DNA of 43,164 nt, taken from Flavobacteriaceae bacterium (GTDB taxonomy: Bacteria; Bacteroidota; Bacteroidia; Flavobacteriales; Flavobacteriaceae). The stretch is from contig JAHEMY010000011.1 of assembly GCA_024643425.1 (NCBI GenBank), positions 1 through 43,164 on the forward strand, read 5' to 3'. Position numbers and translations under genes: made by a program. Of this stretch, positions 18,109-43,164 are shown piece by piece; the stretch's first letter is position 1, and each line of letters starts with the position of its first letter. A model generated the notes under the pieces. That model searched no databases, had not been told where the DNA came from, and worked only from the letters and a program-made list of their open reading frames with translations.

Positions 18109-18139
18109 AATAAAGCGGCCTAATTGCCGCTTTATTTAT
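18109..18139 (+). terminator. Intrinsic terminator after frr
   Basis: AATAAAGCGGC (18109-18119) and GCCGCTTTATT (18126-18136) are perfect inverted copies with a 6-base loop, ending in TTTATTTAT. Confidence 0.85.
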
Positions 18140-26293: not shown

Positions 26294-26320
26294 AAAAAAA
26301 GCCTCATAAATGAGGCTTTT
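26294..26320 (-). terminator. Terminator after the exbB-exbD operon
   Basis: AAAAGCCTCA (26297-26306) and TGAGGCTTTT (26311-26320) form a 10-bp stem. On the minus strand it is followed by further T residues, so it ends the transcript of the exb operon. Confidence 0.8.
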
Positions 26321-31380: not shown

Positions 31381-31412
31381 AAAAAACCCGACTTTTTTTA
31401 GTCGGGTTTTTT
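31381..31412. terminator. Bidirectional terminator between the retropepsin-like gene and sucB
   Basis: AAAAAACCCGACT (31381-31393) and AGTCGGGTTTTTT (31400-31412) are perfect 13-base inverted copies, with A- and T-tracts on both sides so that it works for both converging genes. Confidence 0.92.
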
Positions 31413-35477: not shown

Positions 35478-36017
35478 ATGAAACGAAATATAACATTCTA
35501 CCGTTCGGTGTTTTACAAGCTTATTCTAGGAAGTATGTTTGTACTGATTACACAATTTGGCTATTCTCAAAATCAGCCTAATGAATTTTGGCAACAGGTA
35601 CGATTTGGAGGCGGCATAGGATTGAGCTTCTCAAACGACTTTTTTAGTGCTACTCTGGCACCAAGCGCCTTGTACGAATTCAATCCTTCTTTTGGATTGG
35701 GTGTGGGTCTCAACGGAACCTACAATAGTTTAAAGAACCGATATACTTCAACCATTCTTGGAGCTAGTGTTCTGGCGCTTTGGAATGTAATTCCTGAAGT
35801 ACAACTTTCTGCCGAATTTGAAGAACTCAATGTGCATCGAAATTTTGAAGACAACCTTGCCATTGAAGATGAAAATTACTGGTATCCGGGATTATTTCTT
35901 GGCGCCGGTTTTCGCAGTAACCATGTAACCTTCGGAATTCGATACGATGTTCTTTATGACGAAGAGCAAAGTATTTACGCCAATGCCTGGGTTCCGTTCG
36001 TTCGGGTATATTTCTAA
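35478..36017 (+). CDS. Small outer-membrane beta-barrel protein
   Basis: The 179-residue protein starts at MKRNITF; an ATG nine bases earlier lies inside a -7-like element (TATATTTA at 35462-35469), so 35478 is preferred and the mRNA may be nearly leaderless. A signal peptide ends near residue 31 (GYSQ). The mature part alternates hydrophobic and polar residues in about eight strands and ends WVPFVRVYF, an outer-membrane barrel terminus. No specific function can be read. It diverges from sucA and overlaps the convergent prenyl synthase gene by four bases. Confidence 0.68.
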   Translation: MKRNITFYRSVFYKLILGSMFVLITQFGYSQNQPNEFWQQVRFGGGIGLSFSNDFFSATLAPSALYEFNPSFGLGVGLNGTYNSLKNRYTSTILGASVLALWNVIPEVQLSAEFEELNVHRNFEDNLAIEDENYWYPGLFLGAGFRSNHVTFGIRYDVLYDEEQSIYANAWVPFVRVYF

Positions 36018-36991
36018 ACGGAGCGATTCATTAGGGAAGCACCTAAATTTCGGAGTTTTTCTTTTTTGTCATGCCCTAAATGTACATGACTAAGGCTTAA
36101 AAAAGCTTTCTGGGTATATTCCTCAATTGCTCCTTGGATTGCTGAAGAGGCCCCTGTAGCTAAAAATAATTCTTTCACCCTAGCCACCTTTTGATCTGAA
36201 GGAGTATCGGTGGTATTTTCAAACAATTTCCGAAGTTCTGCACATCGTTGTTCATTCCCTTTTTCAAGTGCCATTATGTACAAATAGGTCTTTTTATTGG
36301 CAATAATATCTCCTCCCACTTGCTTCCCAAAAGTTTCAGGATTACCAAAAGCATCTAAATAATCGTCCTGTAATTGAAAGGCAATACCAAGATTTCGTCC
36401 AAATTCGTAAATACCATTTTGTGAATCTTCATCAGCTCCGGCTACCATCGCACCCATTTTCATTGCTGCCCCTAACAAAACCGCCGTTTTATATTCGATC
36501 ATGCGCAAATAAGCATCAAGCTCAACACCCTCTTGTGTTTCAAAATCGACGTCGTATTGCTGACCTTCACAAACTTCAATAGCCGTTTTACTAAAAAGTT
36601 TAGCTAGATCACGAAATAAGGGCGCTTCGTATTCTTCAAAATACTGATAAGCAAGGATTAACATAGCGTCTCCAGAAAGAATTCCCGTATTGAGATTCCA
36701 TTTGTAATGCACCGTTTCCTTCCCACGTCGTAAGGGAGCTTCATCCATGATGTCGTCATGGATCAAGGAGAAGTTATGAAACAATTCTACCGCCAAGGCT
36801 GCAGGCAGGGCCTTTTTGTAATCGCCTCCAAAAAAATCGCAGGTTAATAAGGTCAATGCAGGTCGTAATCGTTTCCCCCCCAAAGTTAAAATGTAGTCCA
36901 TGGGCGCATAAAGCCCTTTGGGCTGTGCTGTCTGCAAGTGATTGGGCAAAGCCGATTCTAAGGCCTCTTTAAAAAATAGTAAGTCCTGCAT
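36014..36991 (-). CDS. Polyprenyl synthetase (isoprenyl diphosphate synthase)
   Basis: The 325-residue protein has both aspartate-rich motifs of trans-prenyltransferases: DDIMD at 79-83 and DDYLD at 209-213, with GGKRLRPAL near 38-46. It condenses isopentenyl diphosphate onto allylic diphosphates. Chain length is not certain: the residues before the first motif (NFSLIHDD, with F71 and F74) suggest a short-chain product, such as farnesyl or geranylgeranyl diphosphate, which feeds quinone, carotenoid or undecaprenyl synthesis. It is divergent from tetR, whose operator lies 93 bases upstream of its ATG. Confidence 0.9.
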   Translation of the reverse strand: MQDLLFFKEALESALPNHLQTAQPKGLYAPMDYILTLGGKRLRPALTLLTCDFFGGDYKKALPAALAVELFHNFSLIHDDIMDEAPLRRGKETVHYKWNLNTGILSGDAMLILAYQYFEEYEAPLFRDLAKLFSKTAIEVCEGQQYDVDFETQEGVELDAYLRMIEYKTAVLLGAAMKMGAMVAGADEDSQNGIYEFGRNLGIAFQLQDDYLDAFGNPETFGKQVGGDIIANKKTYLYIMALEKGNEQRCAELRKLFENTTDTPSDQKVARVKELFLATGASSAIQGAIEEYTQKAFLSLSHVHLGHDKKEKLRNLGASLMNRSV

Positions 36992-37083
36992 GCGTAATTT
37001 TTGGGCTAAAATAATATTTCAGCCGCAATTCACCCTACAATACTCACTCTTTTAGTCCCAATGTTAAATAATTGTAAAACTTT

Positions 37084-37111
37084 GGAAACTTTAATTGTTT
37101 TTAAAGTTTCC
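37084..37111. promoter_or_regulatory. 28-bp palindromic operator of the TetR-efflux operon
   Basis: GGAAACTTTAA (37084-37094) and TTAAAGTTTCC (37101-37111) are perfect 11-base inverted copies around TTGTTT. The palindrome covers the -33 region and ends six bases before the -7 element, so a bound dimer would block RNA polymerase. Both length and position are as expected for autoregulation by the TetR protein encoded directly downstream. Confidence 0.8.
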
Positions 37112-37124
37112 TTGTCTACTTTTG
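37094..37124 (+). promoter_or_regulatory. Promoter of tetR-tolC-MFP-RND
   Basis: ATTG at 37094-37097 and TACTTTTG at 37117-37124 are spaced by 19 bases, matching the Bacteroidota promoter. The ATG of tetR follows ten bases later, so the leader is very short or absent. Confidence 0.75.
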
Positions 37125-37133
37125 CAGCCTATT

Positions 37134-37742
37134 ATGAAAGAAAAAATTATTCAGAAATCGGCAGAGATGTTTATCAACCTTGGTTTTAAGAGTGTAACCA
37201 TGGATGATATTGCCCAAGAAATGGGGATTTCAAAGAAAACCATTTACTCACACTTTAAAAATAAAACGCAATTAGTGAAGGAAACCGTTCTTACTGTTTT
37301 CAAAAATATTACCTGCGGCATCGATCATATTATTTCACAAAACAAAAATCCTATTGAAGAACTATATGAAATCAAAAAGTTCGCGATGCTTCAATTAAAA
37401 AATGAAAAAGCTTCTCCTCAATTCCAACTTCAAAAGTACTATCCGGAGATTTATGCCATGATGCGCTCCCTGAAGTTTGAAAATATGAATGCATGTACCA
37501 CGAGCAATCTGCAAAGAGGGGTAGAACAAGGGTTTTACAGAAATAATGTGAATATACATTTCATCTCCAGAATCTATTTTTTAGCGCTTAGCGAAATTAA
37601 CAACGAGGAAATTTTCCCGCCTCAACAATTCCCTAAAATCATGATCATGGAAGATTATCTCGAATACCACCTCCGCGGAATTGTAACTGAAAAAGGAAAA
37701 GAAGTGCTCAACCAATTTATCAATACAAAATCCAATGACTAA
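37134..37742 (+). CDS. TetR/AcrR family repressor of the efflux operon
   Basis: The 202-residue protein begins MKEKIIQKSAEMFINLGFKSVTMDDIAQEMGISKKTIYSHFKNK, quoted here only as its parts: the helix-turn-helix runs over about residues 22-45 with the recognition helix around SKKTIYSHF. An upstream ATG at 37095 lies before the -7 element and is rejected. The C-terminal domain is variable and should bind an inducer, which cannot be predicted. It is the first gene of the operon, overlapping tolC by eight bases, and the palindrome at 37084-37111 is its likely operator, giving negative self-control and drug- or stress-induced release. Confidence 0.9.
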   Translation: MKEKIIQKSAEMFINLGFKSVTMDDIAQEMGISKKTIYSHFKNKTQLVKETVLTVFKNITCGIDHIISQNKNPIEELYEIKKFAMLQLKNEKASPQFQLQKYYPEIYAMMRSLKFENMNACTTSNLQRGVEQGFYRNNVNIHFISRIYFLALSEINNEEIFPPQQFPKIMIMEDYLEYHLRGIVTEKGKEVLNQFINTKSND

Positions 37743-39081
37743 AAATCTATTCATAGCGTTCTTTTTAACCTCCATAATTTCATGGTCCCAAGAAAAAGAA
37801 TATTCCTTTTCGCTTGAAGAAGCAGTGACCTTTGCGCTTGATAGCAGTTATACTGCTTTAAATTCCCGAAGGGATGTTGCAAAAGCGCTCAAGTTAAAGT
37901 GGGAAACCACGGCTGCCGGATTGCCGCAAATCAATGGAAATATTCAATACAACAACAACTTAAAGCAACCTGTGAGCCTAATTCCCGGGGAATTTTTTGG
38001 TGGCGAAGCCGGAACCTTTACTCCTGTGGTGTTTGGCACAAAGCAAACTGCCAATGCCGTTGCTACCCTAGAGCAGCTTATCTTCGACGGAAGCTATTTG
38101 GTGGGATTACAAGCGGCTAAAGTGTTTTTGGATTATACCGAAAATGCCAATGAAAAAACCATGCTTGAAGTTCGAAAAGGGGTAATTGCATCCTACAGCA
38201 GTGTCTTATTGGCCCAAGAGTTAGTAACCATCTACGAGCGCAATAAAATAAATGTTGAAAAGAACCTGTATGAGACCAAGGCCGTTTACGAAAATGGACT
38301 TACTGAAGAGGAGAATGTCGAACAATTAGAAACTACCCTCCTTTTTGTTGCCACAAATTTGAGCAACGCCGAACGAACCCTGTCCATCGCCCGACAAATG
38401 TTCAATGCTTCTCTGGGCATTCCGGTTACCGCTCAAGTAACTTTAACAGATGCCTTAAACGAATTGGTAACAGGAAGCATTCGATTAAATATGATGAATG
38501 AAGAACTTACTTTGGAGGAGAATATTGACTATAAAATTGCCAATAATTTCACCGAACAACGCAGTTTGGAGTTAAAACTCGAAAGGAGTAAAGCGCTTCC
38601 ACAACTTTCAGCCTTCGTGAATTACGGAACCCAGGCAAATAATGATAATTTCACCTTTCTTGATGGCGATCAGCGCTGGTTTCAGTACTCCGTGCTAGGT
38701 GTTAGTATGAACATTCCTATTTTCAGTAGCGGCTTACGAAGTTCCAGAACGCAACAGGCAAGGATTGCTCTTGAGCAGGCGGAAACCCAAATGAAGGAAG
38801 CCATTCAAAACATTCGTCTGCAATACGACACTGCGAAAAGCAATTACCAGTACAGCATCGATAAATATGAAAATGCCCGTAAAAACCTCAGCTTGTCCGA
38901 ACGTATAGAGAATAAGAATCAGATCAAATTTTCGGAAGGTCTGGCCACAAGTTTTGAATTAAGACAGGCTCAAGATCAATTATATACGGCACAACAACAA
39001 TATATCCAATCCATGCTTGATGTAATCAACGCCAAGGTCGAACTGGAAACTGTATTAAACATCCCACAATTAAAAAACTAA
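37735..39081 (+). CDS. TolC-family outer-membrane efflux protein
   Basis: The 448-residue protein has a signal peptide (MTKNLFIAFFLTSIISWSQ) and the repeated long-helix pattern of outer membrane efflux proteins, with the two halves visible as EEAVTFALDSSYTALNSRRDVAKA near the start and QARIALEQAETQMKEAIQNIRLQYDTAKSNY later, quoted as helix landmarks. It would form the trimeric channel across the periplasm and outer membrane. Its start overlaps the end of tetR, and the membrane fusion gene follows after 25 bases. Confidence 0.92.
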   Translation: MTKNLFIAFFLTSIISWSQEKEYSFSLEEAVTFALDSSYTALNSRRDVAKALKLKWETTAAGLPQINGNIQYNNNLKQPVSLIPGEFFGGEAGTFTPVVFGTKQTANAVATLEQLIFDGSYLVGLQAAKVFLDYTENANEKTMLEVRKGVIASYSSVLLAQELVTIYERNKINVEKNLYETKAVYENGLTEEENVEQLETTLLFVATNLSNAERTLSIARQMFNASLGIPVTAQVTLTDALNELVTGSIRLNMMNEELTLEENIDYKIANNFTEQRSLELKLERSKALPQLSAFVNYGTQANNDNFTFLDGDQRWFQYSVLGVSMNIPIFSSGLRSSRTQQARIALEQAETQMKEAIQNIRLQYDTAKSNYQYSIDKYENARKNLSLSERIENKNQIKFSEGLATSFELRQAQDQLYTAQQQYIQSMLDVINAKVELETVLNIPQLKN

Positions 39082-39106: not shown

Positions 39107-40285
39107 ATGAAACAAGTAATCTATATAGTATTAGCCTCAATTATACTCGCTGCGTGTGGAGGAGATAAGAAATCCACCGAATCGATTATTGCTACCGGTG
39201 ATTTAAATGCCATCCGTGCCAAAAGATCGGAAATTGTAAACCTGCAAAGCACCATTAACGAAGAGTTGAAAGCCATCGACGAAGCAATTAGTAAATTGGA
39301 TACCGTTAAAAAGCTTCCTCTGGTAACCGCTTTCAAAGCGCACGAAGATGCCTTTACCCACTATCTTGAAATTCAAGGAGACGTGGCCACAAAACAAAAC
39401 GTGGTCCTTCATCCAGAATTTTCCGGATTACTCACTCAGGTATTTGTAAAAGAAGGTCAAAAAGTATCGAAAGGTCAATTACTTGCTCGCATCGACGATG
39501 GAGGATTGTCACAGCAACTTGCGCAAATGGAAGTTCAAGCCGCCTTGGCTAAAACAACGTTTGAAAGACAAGAGCGTTTATGGAATCAGAAAATAGGAAG
39601 TGAAATTCAATACTTGCAAGCCAAGACCAACTATGAAGCCCAGGAAAAAGCGGTGAGTCAAATGAAATCTCAGGTTGGTAAAACCTCCATAAAAGCACCT
39701 TTTTCGGGCATTATCGATGACGTGATCTCAGAACAAGGTTCTGTAGTAAGTGCAGGAATGACAGAAGTGTTTAGACTTGTGAACCTAAGCGACATGTATA
39801 TTCAAGCGGAGGTTCCAGAAAGTTATCTTGGAGACATCACTGAAGGTAAAAGCGTGCAGATCTATTTCCCCATTTTGGGAGATACCATTGCTTCGAAGGT
39901 TCGTCAAGTAGGAAGTTACATTCATCCGGATAACAGAACATTCAAAATAGAGATCAACGTGCCGAATAACAACAAACAAATCAAACCCAACCTCACGGCC
40001 ATGTTGAAAATTAACGATTACAGCAATGAAAAAGCCATCCTTATCCCTCAGAGTGTCTTGTCTGAAAATGCATCAGGAGACCAATATGTGTTTGTTGCCT
40101 CCCAAGATCCTTCAACAAAAGAGTCGAAAGCGCGTCGAGTGATCGTTAGTACCGGAAAAACGGAAGGAGATTTTGTTGAAATACTAAACGGGGTCAAAGA
40201 CGGCGATACCATCATTAAAGAAGGTGCTCGAAGTGTGAAGGACGGACAATCTGTCGATATTTTAAACGTGGAAAGCTATGAGTAA
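39107..40285 (+). CDS. Efflux RND transporter periplasmic adaptor (membrane fusion protein), lipoprotein
   Basis: The 392-residue protein has a lipoprotein signal with lipobox LAAC (C17). A short coiled coil lies near 35-65, more N-terminal than in AcrA. The barrel-sandwich (lipoyl) half-motif GLLTQVFVKEGQKVSKGQLLARID is near 105-128, then an alpha-hairpin (about 130-185), the second lipoyl half KAPFSGIIDDVISEQGSVV, and beta-barrel and membrane-proximal domains. It bridges the RND pump and the TolC channel. The RND start codon lies within its last codons, an overlap of eight bases. Confidence 0.93.
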   Translation: MKQVIYIVLASIILAACGGDKKSTESIIATGDLNAIRAKRSEIVNLQSTINEELKAIDEAISKLDTVKKLPLVTAFKAHEDAFTHYLEIQGDVATKQNVVLHPEFSGLLTQVFVKEGQKVSKGQLLARIDDGGLSQQLAQMEVQAALAKTTFERQERLWNQKIGSEIQYLQAKTNYEAQEKAVSQMKSQVGKTSIKAPFSGIIDDVISEQGSVVSAGMTEVFRLVNLSDMYIQAEVPESYLGDITEGKSVQIYFPILGDTIASKVRQVGSYIHPDNRTFKIEINVPNNNKQIKPNLTAMLKINDYSNEKAILIPQSVLSENASGDQYVFVASQDPSTKESKARRVIVSTGKTEGDFVEILNGVKDGDTIIKEGARSVKDGQSVDILNVESYE

Positions 40286-43164
40286 GAAAAATAAAAGTAT
40301 CGATAAGGAGTTCAAACTCGCTTCTTGGGCAATTGACAATAAGACCACCATCTATGTGCTTATTGCCTTCATATTAATCCTAGGTGGAAAGGCCTATTAC
40401 GATATGCCCCGAGAGACCTTTCCGGAAATCAAAGAAACGAAGATTTATATAAGCACTCCGTATCCGGGAAATACTGCCGAAGATATTGAACGCCTTATTG
40501 TAGATCCGCTAGAAGACCGTTTAAAAAACGTAAGCAATGTGGTTGAAATTATTTCAACATCCCAAGAAGACTATGGCATTGTTACGGTTGAATTTGACGA
40601 GAACATCTCGGTAGAAGCTGCGAAGCAAAAAGTGAAGGATGAAGTAGACGTTGAAAAAGCGGGAGAAGACTGGCCCACCTTCAACGGTGCCAAAGTAGAA
40701 CCCAATGTATTCGATTTAAACTTTTCAGAAGAAACTCCTATTAGCAATATCAATATTCGTGGAAATTACCCGATTGAGAAATTAAAGGAATTCGCCGAAT
40801 ATCTGGAAGACGAAATAGAAGACCTTCCCGAGATCAAGCAGGCCGATATTCGAGGTGCGCAAGATATGGAAGTTCAGGTTGCCGTAGACATCTATAAAAT
40901 GATGGCCGCCAAAGTAAGCTTTGACGATATCATCAACACCATTAGAAACGGAAATATGACTGTTTCTGCCGGAAATATGATTTCCAGTGGGCAACGACGA
41001 ACCATCCGGATCCTCGGAGAAATTGAAAAACCTTCCGAGCTGAACACCTTCGTGGTTAAAACACAAGGAGGTCCCGTTTACTTAAAAGACATTGCGCAAG
41101 TAACCTACCAGGAAAAAGAAAAAACCACCTATGCCCGCGAATTTGGAGAAGGTGTGGTAATGCTCGATGTTAAAAAACGAGCAGGAAAGAATATGGTAGA
41201 AGCTGCACAAAAGGTGGAGCAAATTATACAAGAGGCCAAATCGAACGTATTCCCTCAAGATGTTGAAGTCACCGTTGCCAACGACCAATCGGCAAAAACC
41301 ATCAATCAAGTAGACGATTTGGTGAATAATATCATCTTCGGAATTATCCTTGTGGTTACCGTGCTAATGTTCTTTCTAGGGTTTAGAAATGCCCTTTTTG
41401 TTGGTTTTGCCATTCCTATGTCGATGTTCATGAGTTTCATGGTCTTATCGGCTTTAGGATATACCATGAACACCATGATCTTGTTTGGCCTTATTATGGG
41501 ACTTGGGATGCTCGTTGATAACGGAATTGTGGTTGTTGAAAACGTGTATCGCCTCATGGAAGAGGAAGGTATGTCCCGTGTTAAAGCGGCGAAAAAAGGA
41601 ATAGGGGAAATTGCCTTCCCCATTATAATTTCCACTTTAACGACGGTTGCGGCGTTTATTCCTTTAGGGCTATGGCCCGGAGTGATGGGTGAATTTATGA
41701 TCTACTTCCCTATTACGCTTTCAGTAGTGCTCGGATCCTCGCTCTTTGTGGCAATCTTCATGAACTCTATGTTGGTCTCCCAATTTATGGAAACCGAAGA
41801 AAGAGTCCTCACCGTGAAGAGCTTAATACGATTATCTGTTATTCTTGGTGGTCTGGGGATTATTATTCTCCTATTTGGAGGTGCCATGAGAGGATTAGGA
41901 TCGGTGATGATTTTTACCGCATTGCTATTTTGGATGTACAAATATTTCATCAAACGATGGGCAAACGCCTTTCAAAGACATACACTCCCATGGGTAGAAG
42001 AACGCTATAAGGGCTTTTTGAATTTCGCCCTTGGAGGCTCAAAGCCATTTCTGTTTTTTGGCGGAACTTTTTTATTACTCTTTGTAGTTTTTGGCCTATT
42101 TGGTGCTTCCATCGGAAGTCAGCGAACCAGTGTGGAATTTTTCCCGGACAATAAACCAAACCAAATTGTAGTGTATATCGAATATCCACAGGGAACCGAT
42201 ATTGAAAAAACGAATGCCATTACAAAAGATATTGAAAACAGGGTTTATGCTGTGATCAATAACCAAGAGTACAAAGACGACGGATATAACTTCATGGTTG
42301 AATCTGCAGTTTCACAAGTAGGAGAAGGAGCCGGGAACCCTCAAACCGATGGAGGTAGTGCGGCAGAAATGCCTCACCGTGGTAAAATAACGGCGACCCT
42401 CAGGGAATTCAAGTTTAGACAAGGAAAAGATTCTGAAATCCTTCGTAAAAAAGTGCAGGAAACATTAAAAGGAATTTATCCGGGAGTGGCTATTTCAGTT
42501 GAAAAGGATCCTGTAGGACCTCCAGCGGGATATCCTATTAATATTGAATTGGAAGGAGACGATTACGACGAATTGATTCAATCGGCCGAGTTGATGCGAA
42601 ATTTTATCAATTCGCGAAACATTGCCGGTATCGATGAATTGAAAATTGATGTGAACAAAGGGAAGCCAGCCATGCAAATTTATGTCGACCGTAAAAAAGC
42701 GGGTGAACTAGGCGTTTCTGCAGGTCAGGTTGGAAATCAGTTGCGGCGCTCAATTTTTGGTGAAAAGGCGGGGATTTACAAAAATGATGGTGAAGACTAC
42801 GACATCAATATTCGCTTCAATGAAGACATAAAAGATAACAAAAGTGCGCTTTTTAACCAGAACATTACTTTTCGGGACCAGGCTACAGGAAAGTTAAAAG
42901 AAATACCATTATCCGCAGTAACATCGAGAAAGAACACCTCTTCCTTCAGTGCCATTAAACACAGGGATGCCAAACGTGTCGTAACTGTGTATTCTGCCTT
43001 AGAAGCAGGGTATACCGATGCAGGAGCCGTAGTGAGTCAGATCCAAACCGAAATGGCAAATTTCACTAGTTTGCCCAAAGGTGTGTCTGTGGATTATACA
43101 GGGCAAATTGAAGAGCAGAATAAGCAAATGGCGTTTCTAATGGGTGCTTTTTTCACCGGACTGG
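40278..43164 (+). CDS. RND efflux permease (AcrB/MexB superfamily), cut by the right edge
   Basis: The frame is open from an ATG at 40278 to the window end, 962 residues; the full protein is probably about 1,100. It shows the first membrane helix near 28-45, the porter domain starting PRETFPEIKETKIYISTPYPG, the helix bundle near 350-500 with FGLIMGLGMLVDNGIVVVEN, a cytoplasmic loop and the second porter domain. In the proton-relay helix the first aspartate (VD) is present but the neighbour is N where AcrB has a second aspartate; many Bacteroidota pumps share this. With the TetR, TolC and adaptor proteins it forms a complete tripartite efflux system. Substrates are not predictable. Confidence 0.93.
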   Translation, partial: MSKKNKSIDKEFKLASWAIDNKTTIYVLIAFILILGGKAYYDMPRETFPEIKETKIYISTPYPGNTAEDIERLIVDPLEDRLKNVSNVVEIISTSQEDYGIVTVEFDENISVEAAKQKVKDEVDVEKAGEDWPTFNGAKVEPNVFDLNFSEETPISNINIRGNYPIEKLKEFAEYLEDEIEDLPEIKQADIRGAQDMEVQVAVDIYKMMAAKVSFDDIINTIRNGNMTVSAGNMISSGQRRTIRILGEIEKPSELNTFVVKTQGGPVYLKDIAQVTYQEKEKTTYAREFGEGVVMLDVKKRAGKNMVEAAQKVEQIIQEAKSNVFPQDVEVTVANDQSAKTINQVDDLVNNIIFGIILVVTVLMFFLGFRNALFVGFAIPMSMFMSFMVLSALGYTMNTMILFGLIMGLGMLVDNGIVVVENVYRLMEEEGMSRVKAAKKGIGEIAFPIIISTLTTVAAFIPLGLWPGVMGEFMIYFPITLSVVLGSSLFVAIFMNSMLVSQFMETEERVLTVKSLIRLSVILGGLGIIILLFGGAMRGLGSVMIFTALLFWMYKYFIKRWANAFQRHTLPWVEERYKGFLNFALGGSKPFLFFGGTFLLLFVVFGLFGASIGSQRTSVEFFPDNKPNQIVVYIEYPQGTDIEKTNAITKDIENRVYAVINNQEYKDDGYNFMVESAVSQVGEGAGNPQTDGGSAAEMPHRGKITATLREFKFRQGKDSEILRKKVQETLKGIYPGVAISVEKDPVGPPAGYPINIELEGDDYDELIQSAELMRNFINSRNIAGIDELKIDVNKGKPAMQIYVDRKKAGELGVSAGQVGNQLRRSIFGEKAGIYKNDGEDYDINIRFNEDIKDNKSALFNQNITFRDQATGKLKEIPLSAVTSRKNTSSFSAIKHRDAKRVVTVYSALEAGYTDAGAVVSQIQTEMANFTSLPKGVSVDYTGQIEEQNKQMAFLMGAFFTGL

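Follow-up and report, generated by a model that had tools for sequence, protein, structure and literature searches.

A putative operator of a TetR-family repressor, conserved upstream of an RND efflux operon in Flavobacteriaceae

What protein reads the long inverted repeat that precedes the efflux genes of this Flavobacteriaceae bacterium, and which genes does it switch? The window (the whole stretch of DNA that was analysed, 43,164 nucleotides) ends in four forward-strand genes with a tripartite efflux layout: a gene for a 202-residue protein with a TetR_N domain, the presumed repressor by domain search and AlphaFold model (tetR, 37134-37742), a tolC-like gene for an outer membrane efflux protein (37735-39081), a gene for an RND periplasmic adaptor (39107-40285, by ORF and domain searches) and a gene for an RND permease (40278-43163, still open at the window end). 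Overlaps of 8 bp between tetR and tolC and between the adaptor and permease genes suggest that the four constitute one operon. A polyprenyl synthetase gene (36014-36991) is transcribed divergently on the reverse strand, and the 142-bp intergenic region between it and tetR holds the repeat.

The repeat, GGAAACTTTAA-TTGTTT-TTAAAGTTTCC (whole: GGAAACTTTAATTGTTTTTAAAGTTTCC), occupies positions 37084-37111 and was returned by an inverted-repeat search as two arms of 11 nt each (37084-37094 and 37101-37111), 100% complementary, around a 6-nt spacer. The preliminary description had called it a perfect 28-bp palindrome, which holds for the two 11-base arms but not for the spacer TTGTTT. It had also let the repeat begin ten bases before a -33 element and end six before a -7 element, distances that are corrected here to 11 bases 5′ of the TTG and 5 bases, respectively; its count of 22 bases to the tetR start agrees with the ATG at 37134. 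When the 142-bp intergenic region was simulated 3,000 times with a first-order Markov model, 11 of the simulated regions contained a perfect repeat with arms of at least 11 bp and a spacer of at most 12. The whole window contains five perfect repeats of that size against a simulated mean of 0.3 (20 simulations), the other four all located between ORFs at least 100 aa long. Three of these four, perfect-arm stems of 11, 11 and 13 bp at 18109-18136, 26297-26320 and 31381-31412, look terminator-like by eye. A terminator or RNA hairpin was rejected as an explanation for the repeat under study, which is located upstream of the predicted transcription start, no terminator-like site being found at 36900-37300.

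Loci for comparison included the best 80 of 100 homologues from named genomes, of which those named to family or genus were Flavobacteriaceae or its genera and a few bore no name beyond Bacteroidia or Bacteroidetes bacterium, and 30 loci fetched from a family search that identified a tetR homologue in 187 of 199 genomes at E <= 1e-20. Of 112 loci, 111 matched the query at 1e-10, and removal of 10 duplicates left 101 upstream regions, the window included. The site was recognised at 20 or more of 26 consensus positions in 100 of these 101 regions, which are best matches rather than a random sample and from which the consensus itself was built; this recurrence is the strongest argument against chance. 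The one exception (L077) reads like the form with a 13-base spacer that is described below. The exact core GGAAACT-N14-AGTTTCC, which is the conserved form of the candidate operator by repeat search and family comparison (37084-37111, assigned to neither strand), is present in 94 of the 101 regions. Its parts, given on the forward strand, are the left half-site GGAAACT (37084-37090, each of seven positions kept in 97-100 of 100 sites), the right half-site AGTTTCC (37105-37111, each kept in 98-100 of 100) and a central GT (37097-37098) that stands on the tetR strand in all 100 family sites and meets there the TTG of the predicted -33 element. Symmetric pairs are complementary in 95-100 of the 100 sites at pairs 1-7, in 80-82 at pairs 8-9 and in 0-32 at pairs 10-14. 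The 11-bp arms were rejected as the conserved unit, since all 11 pairs match in 3 of the 101 regions and pairs 10-14 are complementary no better than column composition; the long arms of the window are thus partly accidental. Judged from the aligned regions, the conserved unit in the family is a pair of 7-9 bp half-sites plus the central GT. As for neighbours, a tolC homologue lies on the tetR strand in all 101 loci and an adaptor gene in at least 79, while the polyprenyl synthetase gene is divergent from tetR in 98 of the 101, a high constancy for a gene next to an efflux operon.

The predicted promoter coincides with part of this site. A TTG at 37095-37097 on the forward strand, inside the candidate operator, and TACTTTTG at 37117-37124 on the same strand, with 19 nt between them, fit the -33/-7 promoter of the phylum, which is quoted as TTTG/TANNTTTG in a source that describes the -33 motif as weak in F. 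johnsoniae (PMC6847099). The predicted -7 element has the form TAnnTTTG, found 4-6 bp past the site in 99 of the 101 loci. A sigma-70 scan of 36900-37300 returned two sites, both on the reverse strand, with a shuffled mean of 1.2. The spacing known from F. johnsoniae puts the predicted transcription start at 37129, leaving a leader of 5 nt, and the same spacing applied to the 99 loci with TAnnTTTG predicts a tetR leader of 8 nt or less in 91 of them, commonly 5. The short predicted leader of the window, about 5 nt, can be read at 37125-37136. Of the predicted leaders of F. johnsoniae, 87% are given as longer than 10 nt (PMC6847099), and leaderless mRNAs are put at 5.5% in F. psychrophilum (PMC9723704). 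It may be speculated that a very short leader holds the translation of an autoregulated repressor low. Comparison of the upstream regions also revealed a family-conserved block, TGTTAAA-N5-GTAAAAC, at 37062-37080 on the forward strand, directly 5′ of the candidate operator; conservation within the family is strong, its AAAC being present in about all 101 loci, and by eye the block is not conserved outside the family. A role as upstream promoter element or as another protein-binding site is conceivable. The exact block occurs once in the bacterium's own genome; one further place appears when one mismatch is allowed, and the control likewise has one.

Across the 199 family genomes the exact core was found in 157, once in 154 of them and twice in three (160 sites in total), against 11 sites in 10 genomes for a reversed-pattern control. 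Of the 160 sites, 75 were listed, and 64 of those could be checked against a tetR position recorded for the same genome: all but one (63) precede tetR by 18-136 bp, with a median gap of 22 bp; of the 11 listed sites with no tetR place, that of L154 and both sites of L141 are beside tetR or an adjoining yceI-type gene, and that of L153 is without tetR. The exact core is missing from 42 of the 199 genomes, and 12 of the 199 have no tetR match at 1e-20; in three others, G011, G037 and G172, the site departs from the core by a single letter (L107, L097 and L104). At L148, L151, L152 and L153 the stretch fetched around the core site contains no TetR homologue, and these four sites are possibly chance occurrences at the control rate. 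The bacterium's own assembly, of 2.74 Mb in 201 contigs and 96% complete, has the 11-base arms at this place only, even with up to 3 mismatches, and the exact core once; with up to 2 mismatches there are 15 sites against 14 for the control. With no excess of near matches over the control, a wider regulon in this genome was rejected, and the hope raised earlier that the repeat would serve as a ready binding site for finding other regulon members was disappointed by the genome search for the core and the 11-base arms, which gave none besides this one.

The protein encoded next to the site has the properties of a TetR-family regulator. It scores 50.4 bits against the TetR_N helix-turn-helix model (PF00440, cut-off 24), and its AlphaFold model, based on a 43-row alignment, is a confident TetR fold (pLDDT 90.2), all-helical with a C-terminal ligand domain. 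The model has 188 matches in the PDB at E <= 0.001, and the solved structures named among the 50 matches listed are TetR-type or transcriptional regulators. A putative palindromic operator over the gene's own predicted promoter is a further characteristic of the family. Membership in AcrR is not indicated, the score against NCBIfam PRK10668.1 being 33.2 bits with a cut-off of 271. The recognition helix S33-K34-K35-T36-x-Y38 is common to all 128 TetR proteins beside such sites (the 101, three of genus g128 and 24 from outside the family), a conservation that is supportive and not independent because these homologues were picked by similarity to the window TetR. A TetR paralogue in the same genome with a different helix is without the site (L112, a single case).

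The core is not confined to the family. It was found in 67 of 296 phylum genomes (29 of 30 within the family and 38 of 266 outside, against 9 genomes for the control), and a TetR homologue of about 22-35% identity stands beside it in all 19 class-level loci and 5 of the 6 other phylum-level loci examined, a neighbour check that left out 13 further phylum-level core genomes. In a combined set of family f18 and class-level loci, 18 of them shared with the class-level check, tetR is beside the site in all 47 loci and a tolC homologue in 46. Family f18 has the core in 55 of 98 genomes (control, 6). Of these 55, 49 have GT or AC in the middle, and orientation to tetR gives AC in 30 of 35 loci, so that the f18 site resembles a reverse-complemented window type, its centre inverted relative to tetR. 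A -7-like box stands one base downstream of the f18 site in most loci. Among the 12 other class-level loci (L123-L134), a central GT or AC is found in one and is lacking from 11, which would mean either that the centre counts in certain families alone or that other families read it differently.

Two smaller groups show variations on the arrangement. The sister family f5 has the homologue in 21 of 40 genomes, and of 20 loci fetched, 14 have the half-sites at 12 or more of 14 letters with a 13-bp spacer (a 27-bp site); another, L156, has the 14-bp-spacer form at 13 of 14 letters. A half-site scan found no convincing site in L155, L158, L159, L165 and L168, four of which encode SKKT. Two of the 20 f5 homologues have SKRT, and one of these two (L173) has the site. 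The exact 13-base-spacer form was found in 1 of the 296 phylum genomes (in f5, just upstream of the homologue) against 6 control genomes, and is therefore not a phylum-wide form. Genus g128 has an extra gene between polyprenyl synthetase and tetR, which encodes YceI (PF04264) in both loci scanned (L138 and L142); similar ORFs are seen by eye in the same place in L137 and L139-L141. The core precedes the yceI-type gene in all six fetched regions (L137-L142) and is found again before tetR in four of the six, and 12 of the 17 genomes of the genus in the phylum search have two or three core sites. Two operator copies, 45-51 bp apart, were observed before the yceI-type gene in L137 and L141, and two such tetR clusters in L140. 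On this pattern g128 appears to have added the YceI gene to the regulon.

The comparison lends support to the TetR autorepression proposed in the preliminary description, in that the site follows the tetR lineage, covers the predicted -33 element and goes with a shared recognition helix. Very probably, the palindrome is the operator through which the TetR-family protein encoded at 37134-37742 represses its own operon. The protein would bind the GGAAACT/AGTTTCC half-sites and, when bound, would lie over the -33 element and reach to within 5 bp of the -7 element; occupancy of the site, from about -45 to -18 relative to the predicted start at 37129, would block RNA polymerase. The promoter of the tetR-tolC-adaptor-RND operon would be kept shut by its own repressor and, by analogy, a ligand would release that repressor. 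It is very improbable that the site is instead a conserved core-promoter feature, composed of an AT-rich -33 element and upstream region. Such a feature would account for the overlap with the predicted -33 element and for the TAnnTTTG that follows so regularly, and the AT-rich motifs quoted for F. johnsoniae, centred at -18 and -28 (PMC6847099), fall inside the span of the site; but the G and C positions of the half-sites are among the most conserved, 154 of the 157 core-bearing family genomes have one core only, and the f18 centre is on the opposite strand, a flip to which a reader of pseudo-palindromes would be indifferent and a promoter element would not. A TTGACA noticed by eye near the core in L145, L146 and L150 also suggests that the promoter type may differ while the core stays. 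There is scarcely any likelihood that a regulator other than the neighbouring TetR binds here, as the site tracks the tetR lineage and has no second exact copy in its own genome.

A more extensive role, in which the operator is a two-way switch that acts on the divergent polyprenyl synthetase gene as well, is unlikely. The stability of the divergent pair, the short distance of 142 bp that separates its members, the conserved block on the synthetase side and a -7-like box on the reverse strand, one letter off or one base longer, in 26 of 101 loci would all be in keeping with it, whereas 2 of 101 loci have an exact reverse-strand TAnnTTTG within the adjoining 60 bp, and the class-level loci L117-L134 have no polyprenyl synthetase match next to the site. 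The same counts (2 exact, 26 more in near form) do not support the idea that the upstream block serves as a -7 box in the divergent direction.

If the TetR protein binds the site, binding by two dimers, as in QacR, is somewhat favoured: one dimer would read GAAAC-N7-GTTT and the second the other half. TetR operators are quoted as 15-17 bp for single dimers and 22-32 bp for dimers of dimers (PMC4150764), and the present site measures 28 bp, or 27 bp in 14 of the 20 f5 loci. The centres of the outer half-sites are 21 bp apart, which is two helical turns, and this spacing together with the 28-bp length suggests two dimers. Within one half, GAAAC (positions 2-6) and GTTT (positions 14-17) are centred about 11 bp apart, which is a single-dimer distance, the quoted TetR recognition-helix distances of 31-38 Å (PMC4150764) being about 10-11 bp by our conversion; one dimer per half is proposed accordingly from this spacing. 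Conservation of the central GT in two families hints at two dimers per site but is suggestive only, and our estimate of the two-dimer mode was lowered because the GT is kept in only two of the families seen. A single dimer spanning the 28-bp site with widely spaced half-sites is possible, if rather doubtful: the palindromic part comprises the outer 7-9 bp only and the central GT is not general, yet the 21 bp between the outer half-site centres exceeds what the quoted helix distance would span.

A broader reading may be put forward tentatively, with slightly less than even confidence: that this repressor-operator pair is among the most deeply conserved in the phylum, its operator being an oriented, two-module sequence read by two TetR dimers, GGAAACT-N6-GT-N6-AGTTTCC in two families, inverted relative to the gene between them and one base shorter in the sister family, with a recognition helix that is nearly unchanged and a nearly leaderless mRNA for the autoregulated repressor. 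This reading was rated lower because the central GT is missing from 11 of the 12 other class-level loci. Whether or not it holds, the locus provides a defined, testable candidate operator, nearly unchanged in related bacteria and recognisable in distant ones, for an efflux-pump repressor with homologues in 187 of the 199 sampled family genomes, and its natural variants (the inverted centre, a spacer of 13 or 14 bp) offer a ready-made set for studying how TetR dimers share one operator.

A description of this operator was not found in the literature searched by title and abstract opening, which is not proof of absence; within that literature, the operator and the depth of its conservation seem to be undescribed. 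Switches in which a TetR protein locally represses an RND efflux operon are well known, and the one proposed here resembles QacR, SmeT, RaeR or BmeR5 in mode or layout. QacR of Staphylococcus aureus, a TetR-family repressor of a multidrug transporter, also has a 28-bp palindromic operator, reported to be occupied by two dimers (PMC4482099, PMC4150764); it differs in regulator and pump type and in that tetR heads the pump operon here, and the likeness drawn here is one of operator length and symmetry. AcrR of E. coli is likewise a TetR-type local repressor of an RND pump, and the window TetR falls far below the cut-off of the AcrR model. In Bacteroides fragilis, the TetR regulator BmeR5 is proposed to repress an RND operon by binding between bmeR5 and bmeC5 (PMC4790292), and in Riemerella anatipestifer the TetR gene raeR is described beside OMF, adaptor and RND genes (PMC5727081), a likeness drawn from layout. 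SmeT of Stenotrophomonas maltophilia, which is among the fold matches at 15-16% identity, has a 28-bp pseudopalindrome in the smeT and smeDEF promoter regions, and is reported to block its own promoter and that of an RND pump by steric interference (PMC3128119), as is proposed here for a single promoter where S. maltophilia has separate ones for smeT and smeDEF.
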